Below the pieces are notes generated by a model that worked only from the letters and a program-made list of their open reading frames with translations, searched no databases and was not told the DNA's origin. The translations under genes and the position numbers were made by a program. This document shows, one piece after another, positions 33,997 to 39,205 of a DNA stretch of 64,000 bases (positions are counted from its first letter, which is position 1; every line of letters starts with the position of its first letter). Source of the stretch: Amycolatopsis pretoriensis (GTDB lineage Bacteria; Actinomycetota; Actinomycetes; Mycobacteriales; Pseudonocardiaceae); assembly GCF_900107925.1 (NCBI RefSeq), contig NZ_FNUJ01000011.1, positions 62,001 to 126,000 on the forward strand. Reading direction: 5' to 3'.

Positions 33997-34689
33997 TCAG
34001 TGGTTCCGGCCACGCTCCGATAGCCACGTCCGCAGGTGAGAACCGTCCGATGGGGTGAACGTCACCCGGGTCTCGCCGCCCGGTAACGGCTCGCTGAACA
34101 TCAAGAACCGGCCGCCCTCGTTGTCCACGAACGTCACCGTTCCCGCCGGCTTCAGCGCCCCGGAAGACCGCACCGACAGCTCGAACGTCCCGTACCGGTG
34201 CAGCGGCCACGACGAGAACTCCGTCGCCGCGTCGGTGTCGCGGCGGGTGCCCGGCTCGATGAACGTCAGCTCGGCCAGCGGGACCGGGCGGTACGCCGGG
34301 AGCATGCCGACCACCAGGTCGACCAGCCGGTCGGGACGGGTCTGCGCGAACAGGACCTCCTCGCCCGCCAGCTCCGAGAACACCCCCAGCCCGTGGCCGA
34401 TCGCCGCGCGGTAGAACACCTGGCGGCCCTCCTCCGCCGCGCGGACGACGACCAGCACGTCCGGCTCCGTCCACGCCCGCAGCGTCTGCTCCACCTCGAT
34501 GTCCAGCTTGTCCGGACCCGCGAGACCCCGCGCCCGCATGGACTCCCAGGAAGCGGCCGCGATGCGCTCGTTCTCCACCAGCGTGCGGCCCGGGCTGCGG
34601 ATCTCGAACGGGTGCCAGTTCGCCGGAAGACCGGTACGCCGGACCGCCGTGTCGACCTCAGCCAGGCCCAGTGAGAATTCCTCCGGCAC
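33997..34689 (-). CDS. EspG-family ESX chaperone
   Basis: 230-residue cytosolic protein of the EspG family, which binds PE/PPE-type substrates and brings them to the type VII machinery. Features SLGLAEVDTAVRRTGL, a central sheet (DVLVVVRAAEEGRQVFYRAAIG) and C-terminal GRFLMFSEPLPGGETRVTFTPSDG. GTG at 34689. Lies 33 bases after the last gene of the Ycf46 operon and 70 bases before the WXG-like gene, linking the two blocks on one strand. The ESX core (EccB-E) is not in this window. Confidence 0.8.
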   Translation of the reverse strand: MPEEFSLGLAEVDTAVRRTGLPANWHPFEIRSPGRTLVENERIAAASWESMRARGLAGPDKLDIEVEQTLRAWTEPDVLVVVRAAEEGRQVFYRAAIGHGLGVFSELAGEEVLFAQTRPDRLVDLVVGMLPAYRPVPLAELTFIEPGTRRDTDAATEFSSWPLHRYGTFELSVRSSGALKPAGTVTFVDNEGGRFLMFSEPLPGGETRVTFTPSDGSHLRTWLSERGRNH

Positions 34690-34722: not shown

Positions 34723-35925
34723 TCAGATGTCGAGCTGCCGCACGCCCGTCTCGCGGAACGTCACCCGGCCGGCCGTCGCCTGTTTGCGCAAGCGGACGAT
34801 TTCGTGTGGCTGTAACCCGATCGCGACGCCGAACGCCTCCACGTCCGGGAACCCGCCCTGCCGCTGACGCAGCTCCAGCGCCTTCGTCACCTGCTCCGGC
34901 GACAGCACCCGCGCCAGCTCCGGTCCGGAAGCCGAGTTGACGTCCAAAAGCACAGCAGCGGGCGCCGGCAAAGGTGGCGGAGCCAGCGGAACCAAGTCCG
35001 CCGGCACGTACGCCTCGATCGTGTCGTTCTGTCGCAGGTCCCGAAACGCCAACCCGACCGTGAACGTCCGCGTCCCGCCGTTCGTCCGCACCGCGACCCC
35101 GTCCCGGGCCAGCGAGAGGATCCGCAGGTCCGACCCCACGACCGTGCTCCGCTCGTTGAACGTCGTCCCGTTCGGCCGCAGCACCCGCGCCCGCGTGCCG
35201 ACGGTGAACAGCGACCCGCGCCCCTCCGGCACCTCGACCGCCGCCACCACCGTGCCGTTGCCCAGGTCGTTCAGCCCGTGCACGACGGCGACGCCCTCGC
35301 GCCGCTCCAAGTGGTCGTGCGACGGCTCCTCGAAGGCGGTCAGCCCGTCACCCGCCATCGGCGCCACATCGCACTGGAAGCCCAGCAGCACCGTGCCCTG
35401 CTGTCCGGCCGGCAGCTCCTCGAGAACGCCGGCGGGTCCGAACAGCCCGAGCACCCGCATCGGCTGGCCTCCGCGCGACAGCGAAACCAACGAACCGAAC
35501 CGCAGGACACCGTCCCGGACGACCACCTGGGCGTGGAACCCGGTCACCTGGTCGTAGCCCGGCGCGACGACCTGGGAAACCGACTCCCGACGGCTCAAGT
35601 CCGGGCCCACCACGTCGTCGGTGTACAGCTCCAGCGCATCGCCCTTGACGAGGTCGTGCCGCCCGACCGCGACGAAGACGTCCTTGAGGAACCCCGCGTC
35701 GGTCACCGGCTCGACGTCGCTGGAGAAGAACTTCTTCCGCACCATGATCCCGAGGCGCAGGTTGTCGGCCAGGATCCGGTCGCCCCGCAGCAGCCGCGCG
35801 CGGGCGCCGCGGACCGCGCGCCCGATGCTCACCTGCCCGCCGGGCAGCTCCCCGAGGCCGGGGAGGGCGACCGAGTCGTTGAGCGCCTTGCCGAACTCGA
35901 TCAGCCCGACCCTGACCTCGGTCAC
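34723..35925 (-). CDS. Unknown protein: three IF2-type beta barrels plus C-terminal helix-hairpin-helix
   Basis: 400 residues, no recognised family name. I see three similar segments at about 36-102, 125-200 and 226-310. Each has a basic strand like the IF2 C-terminal barrel (VRGARARLLRGDRI, VGTRARVLRPNG) and closes with GDALELY, GDGLTAF or NDTIEAY, matching the IF2 pattern GDVIEAF. No GTPase domain is present. Residues 325-382 are a ComEA-like helix-hairpin-helix (LLDVNSASGPELARVL, LRQRQGGFPDVEAF), normally a nucleic-acid-binding module. GTG at 35925 overlaps the preceding stop. Last gene of the operon; probably an RNA, DNA or ribosome-associated factor (inference). Confidence 0.7.
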   Translation of the reverse strand: MTEVRVGLIEFGKALNDSVALPGLGELPGGQVSIGRAVRGARARLLRGDRILADNLRLGIMVRKKFFSSDVEPVTDAGFLKDVFVAVGRHDLVKGDALELYTDDVVGPDLSRRESVSQVVAPGYDQVTGFHAQVVVRDGVLRFGSLVSLSRGGQPMRVLGLFGPAGVLEELPAGQQGTVLLGFQCDVAPMAGDGLTAFEEPSHDHLERREGVAVVHGLNDLGNGTVVAAVEVPEGRGSLFTVGTRARVLRPNGTTFNERSTVVGSDLRILSLARDGVAVRTNGGTRTFTVGLAFRDLRQNDTIEAYVPADLVPLAPPPLPAPAAVLLDVNSASGPELARVLSPEQVTKALELRQRQGGFPDVEAFGVAIGLQPHEIVRLRKQATAGRVTFRETGVRQLDI

Positions 35926-36359
35926 GACGTGGCGGCCAGGGTGACGCTGATCGACTGGTCGGCGTTGACGCGCTCGGACTCGATGACCATCCCGGACCGC
36001 GCCGCGCGCTCCTTCAGCCGCGCGAGCACCGAACGCTGCACCTCCGCCGCGTACGCCTCGTCGACCGACAGCACCAGCCGCTGCGCCTCGGCTTCGGCCA
36101 GGCCGGGGCCGTCGACGTGCGCCAGCTGAACGCCCTCGGGGCCGTAGACGAACGTGATCCGGCGCCCCTCCCACGCGGCGACGACGGAGTTGCCGTCGTC
36201 GGTCACCTGCGCCCGCAACCCGGTGAGAGCGCGGGAAAGGAGGTCGCGGTGGCGCATCCGGGTCCGGACGGTGACCACACCGGCCTGCAGGTGCGCCGCG
36301 ATCGTCGCGGCGTTGAGCTGGGCCAGCGCCTCGCTGCGCAGCTTGAGCGTGACACTCAT
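35922..36359 (-). CDS. Ycf35/DUF1257-like protein
   Basis: 145-residue protein. The C-terminal half (AYAAEVQRSVLARLKERAARSG, then MVIESERVNADQSISVTL) and the middle VVAAWEGRRITFVYGPEGV resemble DUF1257, the family of plastid/cyanobacterial Ycf35; the N-terminus is divergent. Assignment is strengthened by the adjacent DUF2997 and Ycf46-type genes. ATG at 36359 overlaps the radical SAM stop, and its own stop overlaps the next start. Function unknown. Confidence 0.65.
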   Translation of the reverse strand: MSVTLKLRSEALAQLNAATIAAHLQAGVVTVRTRMRHRDLLSRALTGLRAQVTDDGNSVVAAWEGRRITFVYGPEGVQLAHVDGPGLAEAEAQRLVLSVDEAYAAEVQRSVLARLKERAARSGMVIESERVNADQSISVTLAATS

Positions 36360-36931
36360 CGGTGATCCCTTTCGAGCAGCGCTTCGAGCACTTCGGTGGT
36401 GGCGAACCCGTTCAGCTCGATCGCGCCGTCCGGGGCGATCGTCAGTTCGAGGCGGTTCGGGGTCGTGAAGATCGACTCGTCGTAGCGGTCGGTGAGGAAG
36501 TGGAACCGCTGGTTCTCCGAACCGACCCACGGCCGCGACGGCTCCGGCCGATCGGCCAGGAAAGGCCCGTCCACCAGCAGATCCGTCGACTCCAGGAGCT
36601 TCGACGGCGGCAGGTCCTCCCGGACGTGCCCGGTGAACGTCATCACCGAAAGACCCGCCGACCGCACCGCGGAGGCGAAGAGTCCCAGCGGCCCCGGCTG
36701 GTCGAACGGCTCGCCGCCGAGCAGCGTGACGCCTTCGATCCCGGAGATCGCCAGCACCCGGGAAACCAGGTCCTGCCAAGGCGTGAGGGTGCCGCCGCGG
36801 GTCGTCCACGTCTGCGGGTTGAAGCAGCCGGGGCAGCGCACCGAGCAGCCCTGCGTCCACACCGCGCACCGCAGGCCGGGGCCTTCGGCCGCGGTGACGT
36901 CGACGATCCGGTGGAGGTTCAGGAGTTCCAT
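36356..36931 (-). CDS. Radical SAM 4Fe-4S protein, NrdG/pyruvate-formate-lyase-activase type
   Basis: 191-residue minimal radical SAM enzyme with the CxxxCxxC motif at Cys29, Cys33, Cys36 (WTQGCSVRCPGCFNP) and the SAM-contact motif GGEPFDQPG. Short size, and NPQTW after the cluster, place it with NrdG-like glycyl radical activases. No glycyl radical enzyme is in the window, so the target is probably an operon product or a distant protein. ATG at 36931 (MELLNLHRIVDV) lies 13 bases inside the DUF2997 gene. A longer frame to 37057 is out-of-frame shadow. Confidence 0.85.
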   Translation of the reverse strand: MELLNLHRIVDVTAAEGPGLRCAVWTQGCSVRCPGCFNPQTWTTRGGTLTPWQDLVSRVLAISGIEGVTLLGGEPFDQPGPLGLFASAVRSAGLSVMTFTGHVREDLPPSKLLESTDLLVDGPFLADRPEPSRPWVGSENQRFHFLTDRYDESIFTTPNRLELTIAPDGAIELNGFATTEVLEALLERDHR

Positions 36932-37134
36932 TGCGACTGCTGCTGCGACGCCGTGTTCCCGGCTTCGGAAGACGTCCGCCGGTAGTCCTCGGTGAACTCC
37001 GACGTCACGGTCTCCGCGCCGAGCAGGTCCTCCAGCAGCGGGATGTAGTCGAGGCACTTGGACCCGGTCACGCCGTGCGTTTCGGCGCTGATCGAGCCGT
37101 CCTTGCCGATGGTGACGGTCACGCGGTGCGTCAT
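36919..37134 (-). CDS. DUF2997 small protein
   Basis: 71-residue protein: MTHRVTVTIGKDGSISAETH, then GVTGSKCLDYIPLLEDLLG. This matches the DUF2997 pattern of a beta hairpin, a G-x-G-x-x-C segment and a helix. A single conserved Cys is present. In other bacteria DUF2997 is found next to DUF1257. ATG at 37134 overlaps the AAA+ gene stop (ATGA). The serine/glutamine-rich last 17 residues look unstructured. Function unknown; the conserved Cys could carry a modification or metal. Confidence 0.75.
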   Translation of the reverse strand: MTHRVTVTIGKDGSISAETHGVTGSKCLDYIPLLEDLLGAETVTSEFTEDYRRTSSEAGNTASQQQSQWNS

Positions 37135-38756
37135 ACGTCGATCGTCCTTCCCCTCGGGGATTCCGGCTGCGGCGGCGGTGGTGCGACGGGCGCCTCGACG
37201 TCGTCGGAAGTGTCCGTCGCCGCGACGGCCCGGGTCTGCGCCCAGTTCCGGATGGCCAGGATTTCGTCGGCCTGGGTGACCGACAGCGGCACGGTCGACT
37301 TCACCGCGCGCACGAGGTCGTCGCGGCGCAGCGGCCGTTTCTCGGCGAACGCGTCGACCAGGGCGGCCAGCACGGCCTGCTCGATCTCGGCGCCGCTGTA
37401 GCCCGCGCTGACGTCGGCGAGCTCGGCGAACAGCGCGTCTTCGAGACGCAGCTCGCTCGCCACGAAGGTGTCGGTGACGCGCCGGCGCAAGTGGATCCGC
37501 CAGATCGCGGCGCGCTCGGGGCCCGAGGGCAGGTCGACGAAGAAGATCTCGTCGAACCGGCCCTTGCGCAGGAACTCCGGCGGCAGTGAATCGACCTGGT
37601 TCGCGGTGGCCATCACGAACACCGGCGCCGACTTCTCCTGCATCCACGACAGGAACGTGCCGAACACGCGCCGCGCGGTGCCGCCGTCGCCACCGCCGCC
37701 CGCGCCGGCGAGGCCCTTCTCGATCTCGTCGACCCACAGCACGCACGGCGCGATGCCCTCCGCGGTGCGGATGACCGTGCGGATGTTCTTCTCGCTGGAG
37801 CCGACCAGCCCGGCGAAGACGCGGCCCAGGTCCAGGCGCAGCAGCGGCAGCCGCCACATGTTCGCGACGCACACCGCGGACAGGCTCTTGCCGCAGCCGG
37901 GCACGCCGGTGAGCAGCAGGCCCTTCGGCGCGGCGAGGTTGTACGCCGACGCGGCCGGGGTCCAGGTGCCGGTGCGCTTGGTGAGCCACCGCTTGAGCCG
38001 GTCGAGGCCACCGACGGCGTCGAAGCTCGTTTCCGCCGGCACGATGTCGAGCATCCCGGACCGCCGGACGGCCTGGCGCTTCTCGGCGAGGATCAGCTCG
38101 AGGTCGCTGGGGTCGAGCCCGCCACCCTCGACGAGCGCCCGGGCGAACGCGTTCTCGGCCTCGGGCAGCGTGAGACCCCTCGCGGCGGCGACGATCATGT
38201 CCCGGTCGTCGCGGTCGATGCTGATCCGGACGTTCTGCCGGTGCGCGGCGACCATGCCGTCCAGCAGTTCGCCGATCTGGCGCTGGTCGGGCAGCGGGAA
38301 GTCGACGACGGTCGCGTCGTGTTCCAGCTCCGGCGGCACGGGCAGCGACGGCGACACGAGGATGAGGCTGAGCGGCACCGGCCGGTTCTTGAACGCGGCG
38401 GCGAGCTCGCGCAGCCGGCGCACGACGTCGGGATCGGGGCGGTGCCCGCCTTCGGAGACCAGCGACGGGTGCAGGTCGGCGAACACGAACACGGCCGGTT
38501 CGCCCCAGCCGTAGATCCGTTCGAGCGCGGCGGCCGCGCTGCGGGTCTCGCTGATCGGCGGGCCACCCGCGGGGGCCAGCCCGGTGGTCGACGACCAGAC
38601 GTACACGCGCCGCGGCGTGCGGAGCCGCTGCTGGTCTTCGGCGACCGCGCGGATCTCCCGCAGCACCCGCTGCTCTTCGTGCGTCTCGACGACCAGCAGC
38701 GGGTAGCGCGCCTGCAGCAGCTGGGTCAGCTCGTCGCGAAACCCCTGGCCGGCCAT
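37131..38756 (-). CDS. Ycf46-type AAA+ ATPase
   Basis: 541-residue AAA+ protein of the Ycf46 family. The N-terminal half (1-230) is a degenerate ATPase-like domain with ARYPLLVVETHEEQRVLREI and VFVFADLHP. The C-terminal AAA+ module has Walker A GVPGCGKS (284-291), Walker B VLWVDEIEKG (339-348), sensor-1 ATANQVD and Arg-finger region LRKGRFDEIFFVDLP. The usual order in Ycf46 proteins is the same. First gene of the five-gene operon, ATG at 38756. Likely remodels or assembles the partner proteins; Ycf46 has been linked to carbon uptake in cyanobacteria, which does not explain its presence here. Confidence 0.88.
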   Translation of the reverse strand: MAGQGFRDELTQLLQARYPLLVVETHEEQRVLREIRAVAEDQQRLRTPRRVYVWSSTTGLAPAGGPPISETRSAAAALERIYGWGEPAVFVFADLHPSLVSEGGHRPDPDVVRRLRELAAAFKNRPVPLSLILVSPSLPVPPELEHDATVVDFPLPDQRQIGELLDGMVAAHRQNVRISIDRDDRDMIVAAARGLTLPEAENAFARALVEGGGLDPSDLELILAEKRQAVRRSGMLDIVPAETSFDAVGGLDRLKRWLTKRTGTWTPAASAYNLAAPKGLLLTGVPGCGKSLSAVCVANMWRLPLLRLDLGRVFAGLVGSSEKNIRTVIRTAEGIAPCVLWVDEIEKGLAGAGGGGDGGTARRVFGTFLSWMQEKSAPVFVMATANQVDSLPPEFLRKGRFDEIFFVDLPSGPERAAIWRIHLRRRVTDTFVASELRLEDALFAELADVSAGYSGAEIEQAVLAALVDAFAEKRPLRRDDLVRAVKSTVPLSVTQADEILAIRNWAQTRAVAATDTSDDVEAPVAPPPPQPESPRGRTIDV

Positions 38757-38863: not shown

Positions 38864-39205
38864 ATGACTCGATCCCGGGAGCCCAGGATGACGCTGCCGA
38901 CGCAGCTCGTCCTGCGGGTGCTGATGGCCGATCCGGCGAGGGAGCTGTACGGGTTGCAGATCTGCGGCGAAGCGGGGCTGCCCAGCGGCACGATCCACCC
39001 GATCCTGGCCCGGCTCGAGCGGGTCGGCTGGCTGTCCAGCCGCTGGGAGACGGTCGACACGCGCGAAGAGGGCCGGCCCCGGCGCCGGTACTACCGCATC
39101 GACCCGGCCGCGATGGGGCTCGTGCACGCGGCCCTGCTGCGGGCCGAGGCGTCCGCGCAGGGGCTGGGCCGCCTGCGGCCGCACCTGGCCGACGGTGCCT
39201 CATGA
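38864..39205 (+). CDS. PadR-family transcriptional regulator
   Basis: 113-residue winged-helix PadR protein: LPTQLVLRVLMADPARELYGLQICGEAGLPSGTIHPILARLERVG, wing REEGRPRRRYYRID. Probably leaderless at ATG 38864. An almost certain self-operator lies just upstream and could also control the divergent Ycf46 operon. Its stop overlaps the next gene start (ATGA). Ligand unknown. Confidence 0.87.
   Translation: MTRSREPRMTLPTQLVLRVLMADPARELYGLQICGEAGLPSGTIHPILARLERVGWLSSRWETVDTREEGRPRRRYYRIDPAAMGLVHAALLRAEASAQGLGRLRPHLADGAS

Follow-up and report, generated by a model that had tools for sequence, protein, structure and literature searches.

Little is known of the roles of Ycf46, Ycf35 (DUF1257) and DUF2997, protein families that occur in plastids, cyanobacteria and phages. 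The Ycf46 (slr0374) gene of Synechocystis lies in an operon of CO2 utilisation and stress; according to the accessible parts of PMC7496141 (citing Jiang 2015), slr0373-0374-0376 are induced by stress and inactivation of slr0374 lowers EcaB activity. DUF2997, Ycf35 and fed7 are listed as a cyanobacterial cluster in the available portion of PMC4284462, and the presence of ycf35 and ycf46 in red algal plastids is reported by habitat in that of PMC5940233. Here we describe an operon of Amycolatopsis pretoriensis (genome of 10.3 Mb) that lies in a stretch of 64,000 nucleotides, referred to as the window (contig NZ_FNUJ01000011.1, positions 62,001 to 126,000). Its five genes encode a Ycf46-type AAA+ ATPase (gene 1), a DUF2997 protein (gene 2), an NrdG-like radical S-adenosylmethionine (SAM) enzyme (gene 3), a divergent DUF1257-like protein (gene 4) and a protein with initiation factor 2 (IF2)-type segments and a helix-hairpin-helix (HhH) domain (gene 5). 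The proteins of genes 1 and 5 were found to end in one and the same short motif. Our preferred explanation, which we hold with moderate confidence, is that these genes specify a small remodelling machine like Cdc48/p97, together with its dedicated partners, and that the common tail is its docking tag.

Gene 1 is of the same AAA+ type as slr0374 by name. Five cyanobacterial loci that were fetched (slr0374 itself is not among them) resemble the present locus in having a DUF1257-like gene downstream of the AAA+ gene and an AAA+ tail of the form [KQ]R[ML]EF, but they differ from it in that no radical SAM or HhH gene was detected within about 8 kb. The original prediction knew of no described function for the set, and this stands within the literature searched, which omits most subscription papers; in the same literature no match was found for Ycf46 together with radical SAM, nor for DUF6744, a family that is met below. 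The accessible parts of PMC10954446 and PMC7824862 hold no mention of this gene set, and those of PMC4284462, PMC7496141, PMC5940233, PMC10954446, PMC7824862 and PMC6017811 hold none of a shared C-terminal tail.

The tail has the form R-x-hydrophobic-[DE]-hydrophobic, with RTIDV in gene 1 and RQLDI in gene 5. Related loci were sampled as the best 80 of at least 553 and the best 80 of at least 333 relatives, and the frequencies lean towards relatives of this operon's form because only the best-scoring loci were taken. With the strict pattern R-x-[LIVMF]-[DE]-[LIVMFY]-end, the tail was observed in 73 of 169 AAA+ proteins and in 44 of 50 HhH proteins of the loci fetched. None of the 82 DUF2997, 60 radical SAM and 89 DUF1257-like proteins carries it, and it was seen in 11 of 5574 other open reading frames (ORFs) of at least 100 residues, a background which comes from a simple six-frame caller and includes spurious frames on both strands. 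Internal pentamers, taken as a second background, fit the pattern at a rate of 0.0003-0.0006. After similar rows were removed and K or Q was also allowed at the first position, the tail was present in 72 of 152 AAA+ and 44 of 50 HhH proteins, and when the last 20 residues were shuffled 1000 times it was obtained in at most three AAA+ and two HhH proteins. Six HhH proteins miss the pattern: the last two residues are DW or EW in three of them, another carries an additional Q, another falls one residue short, and the last has no tail. Within the family of gene 5 itself, the tail G[VI]RQLDI is present in 28/28 aligned sequences, which differ from one another in the length of the linker that joins segment 3 to the HhH domain.

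The presence of the tail on the AAA+ protein was observed to follow that of companion genes. In 82 scored loci, the AAA+ tail occurs in 51 of the 61 with a companion gene vs 1 of the 21 without. This count covers genome loci, the operon's own locus and five plasmid loci, allows up to two residues after the motif, and omits AAA+ ORFs shorter than 430 residues and loci with fewer than 2500 bases on both sides. The sole tailed locus without a companion (L039; loci are cited by number) lies at a contig end and has an HhH gene on the other strand. Two unusual HhH arrangements were also noticed: in a rumen bacterium (L048, 2299-7341) seven HhH-labelled genes, all tailed, stand in tandem upstream of the radical SAM and AAA+ genes, and in L066 (2473-4173) a single partner protein of Tannerellaceae contains seven HHH_3 stretches and ends in the tail GRVLDI.

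Other neighbours of the AAA+ gene also carry the tail. For example, it was found on a protein with an Mrr-type nuclease domain (L051), on rhomboid-like proteins adjoining the radical SAM gene (strict in L068, a near match in L081) and on WGR and DUF6744 proteins beside the AAA+ gene of a 341 kb viral contig (L120), and near matches occur in two phage pairs (L127 and L142). On many phage contigs the AAA+ gene is followed by a member of a family that was built from the L184 protein and of which two members scanned match phrog_11021. The motif lies within the last 75 residues of 23 of the 29 non-redundant members of this family (shuffled mean 1.4, maximum 6) and elsewhere in 7 of the 29, over a stretch three times as long. 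The tail motif may therefore not need to sit at the very C-terminus, because this phage partner family holds it within the last 75 residues. In phage records with mostly tagged AAA+ proteins, DUF2997 was found in 4 of 29, DUF1257 in 1 of 23 and radical SAM in 0 of 19, with the AAA+ protein tagged in 27 of the 29, all 23 and all 19, respectively.

Where the AAA+ tail departs from the canonical form, the neighbour's tail can depart with it. Pairs noticed by eye are KTRKVLV/SNRKIKI (L021), RPRRQVLG/PRRRNILI (L224) and GFRNLEL/GFRGLEF (L072, the second on the other strand), and five further records gave a canonical pair (L222, GGRRIDF/GGRTLDL), the clear non-canonical pair of L224, possible pairs in L220 and L221, and none in L219. 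In 62 loci with a non-canonical AAA+ tail, the best neighbour score was 12.27 to the own tail vs 10.45 when permuted, and none of 5000 permutations reached it; 15 of these loci score at least 15 vs 8.3 expected (p 0.010). ORFs on the opposite strand scored 9.13 vs 8.65 (p 0.18). This test left out canonical and core-ending AAA+ tails, the locus L046, loci having fewer than two neighbours, and rows whose last six residues repeat those of another; some of the 62 loci are near-canonical. A phage group was noted besides (L112, L116 and L125), in which the AAA+ protein ends in RRRIMS or RRRIMN (not in L125) and upstream genes have basic ends of similar type, one of them, in L112, being ParB-like.

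Gene 1 matches AAA (PF00004, 1.6e-27) in Pfam. Its likeness to Ycf46-type AAA+ proteins runs over the full length, as seen from phrog_8638 (3.1e-143, residues 4-518), from eight relatives (one of them cyanobacterial) with 34-52% identity over 79-95% of gene 1, and from the fold. The name Ycf46 is given by kinship, no Ycf46 profile having appeared in the libraries used. As read from the sequence, the protein would consist of a degenerate N-terminal AAA domain, an active-type C-terminal AAA domain, a linker and the tail; the sole Walker A, GVPGCGKS, lies in the second domain and the N-terminal domain has none. The AlphaFold2 model of gene 1 has a predicted local distance difference test (pLDDT) score of 92.8 and a predicted TM-score of 0.88, and Foldseek aligned it with p97/Cdc48 over the whole chain (best E 2.1e-24, 549 columns with gaps; TM-scores by query length 0.42-0.63 among the 50 matches listed). 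Sequence profiles also tie gene 1 to p97/Cdc48 in two stretches. The predicted structure thus shows the D1-D2 architecture of p97, and gene 1 would act as a ring-shaped, ATP-driven remodeller because it matches p97/Cdc48 by fold and by sequence profile and has one Walker A. It is unlike p97/Cdc48 in that the p97 N-domain is missing, the first domain has no Walker A and the tail is a different one. The C-terminal tail of p97 itself docks cofactors.

The radical SAM enzyme of gene 3 matches Fer4_12 (PF13353, 1.9e-29) and Radical_SAM (PF04055, 1.4e-7), both over the Pfam cut-off; with 32.3 bits against a cut-off of 29.5 for PF04055, it belongs to the radical SAM superfamily. The three cysteines of CxxxCxxC and the GGEP motif are invariant in 24 of 24 aligned relatives. 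Gene 3 is like NrdG and the pyruvate formate-lyase activases in these motifs and in having NrdG (TIGR02491) as its best NCBIfam model, with 8.4e-27 and 94 bits, which is below the equivalog cut-off of 126.1. The GSxNQ motif seen in the gene 3 alignment also occurs in NrdG. Unlike those activases, gene 3 stands in a genome in which neither NrdD (PF13597) nor the glycyl-radical domain (PF01228) was matched, by searches that detected them in 6 (NrdD) and 3 (glycyl-radical domain) of the 14 control genomes, and its genomic partner is an HhH protein. Gene 3 looks like an orphan activase because no NrdD or glycyl-radical domain is found in the genome, and an NrdG-like enzyme in such a genome points to a new radical SAM substrate. 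A radical SAM gene is present in 36 of 38 loci with an HhH gene, and the HhH gene lies directly 5' of the radical SAM gene in 26 of 59 occurrences of the latter; we infer that the tailed HhH partner is the best candidate substrate. Near the AAA+ genes of L064 and L068, loci of Planctomycetes and Verrucomicrobia, a different, longer radical SAM protein with extra cysteines was seen.

Gene 5 had been described as a triple IF2 barrel. Segments 1 and 3 agree by sequence with the IF-2 C-terminal domain (hhalign probability 93.5, E 2.2e-7, and 90.9, E 1.1e-6, respectively), and segment 2 does not (probability 1.6 in the same sequence-only comparison). The C-terminal part matches HHH_3 at 1.8e-4 with 22 bits, under the Pfam cut-off of 27, and the gene 5 profile matches the ComEA chain 8dss at 3.5e-5. 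Gene 5 is thus like ComEA in its HhH domain, as are many HhH partners elsewhere, which by eye consist of a membrane segment, a linker and the HhH domain, but it is unlike ComEA in carrying IF2-type segments instead. We know of no tail of this kind in ComEA. No match to gene 5 was found in phages. In one congeneric locus (L218), gene 5 was matched in two pieces of one longer open frame, as if there were an insertion before the HhH domain. Both this HhH domain and the shared C-terminal tail are new relative to the original prediction.

Genes 2 and 4 encode small proteins that repeatedly accompany the AAA+ protein. Gene 2 was placed in DUF2997 as predicted (PF11211, 8.5e-16, 58 bits vs a cut-off of 24.1, over the Pfam gathering threshold). 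Its cysteine, which had been suggested as the residue modified by the radical SAM enzyme, is kept in 22 of 22 chosen homologues aligned. The exact G..G..C motif of DUF2997 occurs in 48 of 54 DUF2997 matches from loci with a radical SAM gene and in 21 of 28 from loci without a detected one; it is missing from 13 of 82 DUF2997 matches, and in three of the 13 the cysteine is absent. The association of the AAA+ and radical SAM genes holds. A dedicated role of this cysteine as radical SAM target is weakened and was rejected, since the motif is retained in loci without radical SAM. For gene 4, the predicted place in DUF1257 (Ycf35, PF06868) was not obtained directly: there was no Pfam match at E up to 1 and none at 0.01 against PF06868. 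However, 38 of 64 chosen members of its iterated family match PF06868 at E up to 0.01, and a profile-profile comparison of gene 4 with the DUF1257 set gave a probability of 63.8 (hhalign, E 6.7e-5), so that its kinship to DUF1257 appears to be an indirect one. Neither the DUF1257-like nor the DUF2997 profile matched a solved structure better than E 0.1.

If the tail is a docking tag, the ring, which is assumed to be hexameric, would offer its own tails and the partners theirs to one kind of binding site. The AAA+ protein would be the most likely bearer of this site, since of all components it alone is shared by the tail-bearing loci that were examined; a host protein or a phage partner might also provide it. 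Adaptor roles would fall to the DUF1257-like and DUF2997 proteins. Gene 5 would serve as a partner or client whose front part depends on the lineage (IF2-type in this operon; membrane-like, GYF or of another kind in others) and whose back part, made of HhH, linker and tail, is shared. The radical SAM enzyme, whose gene often follows the HhH gene directly, may modify or radically activate such a partner, and the AAA+ ring may expose the radical SAM target or reset the complex by ATP-driven threading. A wider and more doubtful proposal, to which we give tentative credence, is that p97-like machines across phyla share a lineage-specific C-terminal password with a changing cargo (barrel, membrane, nuclease-like, ParB-like, injection-system or phage proteins), and that this cargo receives a modification or a radical from an orphan NrdG-type radical SAM enzyme. 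If this were true, gaining the tail would be enough for a cargo family to join the machine, and the passwords of ring and cargo would drift in parallel. A tail common to an ATPase and its partners is a cheap and direct handle on what the machine acts on and lets candidate partners be recognised by sequence alone, and its recurrence in related systems of other bacteria and of phages hints at the way in which machines of this kind may recognise partners.

Several observations weigh against the docking-tag explanation. The AlphaFold2 monomer of gene 1 leaves the tail disordered (block pLDDT of 59, 50 and 45 across the last 21 residues) and no docking site is visible in it. Since tail-bearing proteins served to build the HhH profiles, there is a mild circularity. 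The link between tail and companions is clear in the counts but is not established independently of descent: the tree gives five supported independent contrasts, the tail following the companions in two or three and opposing them in none, and five contrasts cannot reach significance. In canonical HhH loci, the tail match to the own AAA+ protein was 12.8 vs 11.2 to foreign ones (permutation p 0.066), which is not significant. Neighbours other than HhH proteins have a matching tail in 14 of 1144 cases on the same strand and in 4 of 771 on the opposite strand. The rhomboid homologue of L064 ends in RFADLD, which is not canonical, though its AAA+ protein has a canonical tail. No second tagged ORF was found in the stretch examined of the five cyanobacterial loci with the AAA+ tail [KQ]R[ML]EF. 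Many phage records are fragments in which a missing companion is weak evidence, while the Catdawg record is a complete genome. For the non-canonical tails, control windows inside the same neighbours gave 10.1-10.8 vs 9.8-10.0 (an excess of 0.3-0.8; p 0.026, 0.028, 0.036 and 0.25), and several of the best-scoring pairs are simply stretches of acidic or basic residues. Composition explains part, not all, of the non-canonical matching because the control windows also exceed permutation.

The tail could be read in other ways. It may be a degron or client tag that is recognised in the AAA+ pore, the HhH, nuclease-like and phage proteins being clients for unfolding and the tail of the AAA+ protein a pseudo-substrate for self-control. 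That unrelated proteins carry the tail, and that AAA+ proteins without nearby companion genes are mostly tailless (20 of 21), would fit this, but no protease was seen recurring in the set, and the partners, being conserved and co-encoded, look like stable components rather than waste; we regard it as unlikely. The tail may instead be the recognition sequence of the radical SAM enzyme, which would modify the C-termini of the AAA+ and HhH proteins as peptide-modifying radical SAM enzymes do. The regular presence of the radical SAM gene in HhH loci, often directly after the HhH gene, and the failure to find an NrdD or glycyl-radical target in the genome speak for such a role. However, the AAA+ tail also occurs in cyanobacterial loci without detected radical SAM and in phage records that gave no radical SAM match (0 of 19), and the internal copies in the phage partner family disagree with a strictly terminal chemistry. 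Such a role of the tail is quite unlikely, and the tail as a purely radical SAM-linked feature was rejected since the cyanobacterial and phage loci contradict it.

HbYX-type docking, through a hydrophobic-Tyr-X tail, is known for proteasomal ATPases, and these tails resemble the present one in that a ring ATPase and other factors alike end in a short motif. They are unlike it in that the motif is different and many of the tail carriers probably have no proteasome. A related possibility is that the tail joins the ring with a protease, for instance the 20S proteasome, and that the partners use the same pocket. The predicted p97-like ring fold of gene 1 is consistent with it, and the accessible text of PMC6017811 reports that Cpa, a Cdc48-like protein of actinobacteria, interacts with the proteasome. 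However, gene 1 ends in T-I-D-V, where the tyrosine is absent, and the tail motif was found in phages, Bacillota and Bacteroidota. To our knowledge, these two phyla mostly have no 20S proteasome. Docking to a protease is thus highly improbable, and an HbYX identity of the tail was rejected because the motif differs. A beta-clamp motif was also considered and rejected. Lastly, the operon may be an anti-phage or inter-element conflict system. Its patchy spread (DUF2997 in 2 of 246 genomes of the phylum, gene 5 in 31 of 80 congeners), its presence on plasmids and in phages and the tagged Mrr-type neighbour would agree with conflict, but PADLOC, run on the five operon proteins, returned no more than the AAA part of IetA, weak TRIP13 matches and a weak viperin match, and phages themselves carry the AAA+ protein and tail, which makes such a role very unlikely.

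The AAA+-centred set with an NrdG-like radical SAM gene was found to be conserved across phyla and is not confined to one genome. Judged from the titles of their records, related clusters are present in, among others, Bacillota, Bacteroidota, Planctomycetota, Verrucomicrobiota, Gastranaerophilales and cyanobacteria. The closest relatives among the matches listed are Amycolatopsis species with 93-95% identity in gene 1. At E up to 1e-20, the count of gene 5 given above was obtained in congeneric genomes, and the order of genes 2-5 is identical in 30 of 30 congeneric loci fetched, own locus included, with flanks of 1500 bases that cover genes 2-5 and leave gene 1 mostly beyond them. The two genomes of the phylum with DUF2997 include the present one. 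Rhodococcus and Paenarthrobacter plasmids have the order AAA+, DUF1257-like, DUF2997, HhH and radical SAM. In three spirochaete loci (L020, L080 and L101), the AAA+ and radical SAM genes stand among genes of a contractile injection system or phage tail (tail tube gp19, CIS_tube and baseplate V). Small homologous proteins ending in RFSNLEL or RFGKLEMD were noted in L080 and L101.

The features of the operon are collected in the table. All five genes lie on the minus strand with open frames throughout, in the order and with exactly the coordinates of the original prediction, and each of its junction overlaps was confirmed: ATGA at 37131-37134, 13 bases at 36919-36931, ATGA at 36356-36359 and GTGA at 35922-35925. 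The fixed stoichiometry that had been drawn from these overlaps is not supported; they suggest co-translation instead, and the gene order differs in the actinobacterial plasmids. As a whole, the earlier interpretation is partly supported.

Features of the five-gene operon (positions in the window)
Feature	Position	Strand	Description or evidence
Gene 1	37131..38756	-	Ycf46-type AAA+ ATPase, 541 aa
Gene 1 C-terminal tail R-T-I-D-V-COOH	37134..37148	-	Sequence and motif statistics
Gene 2	36919..37134	-	DUF2997, 71 aa, with G..G..C
Gene 3	36356..36931	-	NrdG-like radical SAM, 191 aa, CxxxCxxC and GGEP
Gene 4	35922..36359	-	Divergent DUF1257 (Ycf35)-like protein, 145 aa
Gene 5	34723..35925	-	IF2-type segments, HhH and tail, 400 aa, GTG start
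Gene 5 segment 1 (residues 1-112), IF-2 C-terminal-domain-like	35590..35925	-	hhalign
Gene 5 segment 3 (residues 206-312), IF-2-like	34990..35310	-	hhalign
Gene 5 HhH domain (residues 324-382), ComEA type	34780..34956	-	HHH_3, ComEA 8dss
Gene 5 C-terminal tail R-Q-L-D-I-COOH, same motif as gene 1	34726..34740	-	28-sequence alignment

Directly downstream of the operon lies an EspG-family gene (33997-34689, minus strand; PF14011, 6.5e-29), and EspG adjoins gene 5 in 25 of the 30 congeneric loci. A link to ESX was rejected and the adjacency is taken as synteny, because EspG was undetected within the 1500-base flanks of the other five, which are the most divergent (in L218, gene 5 runs on). Upstream of gene 1, a divergent ORF at 38864-39205 on the plus strand appears by eye to be PadR-type-like and may be a regulator of the operon.

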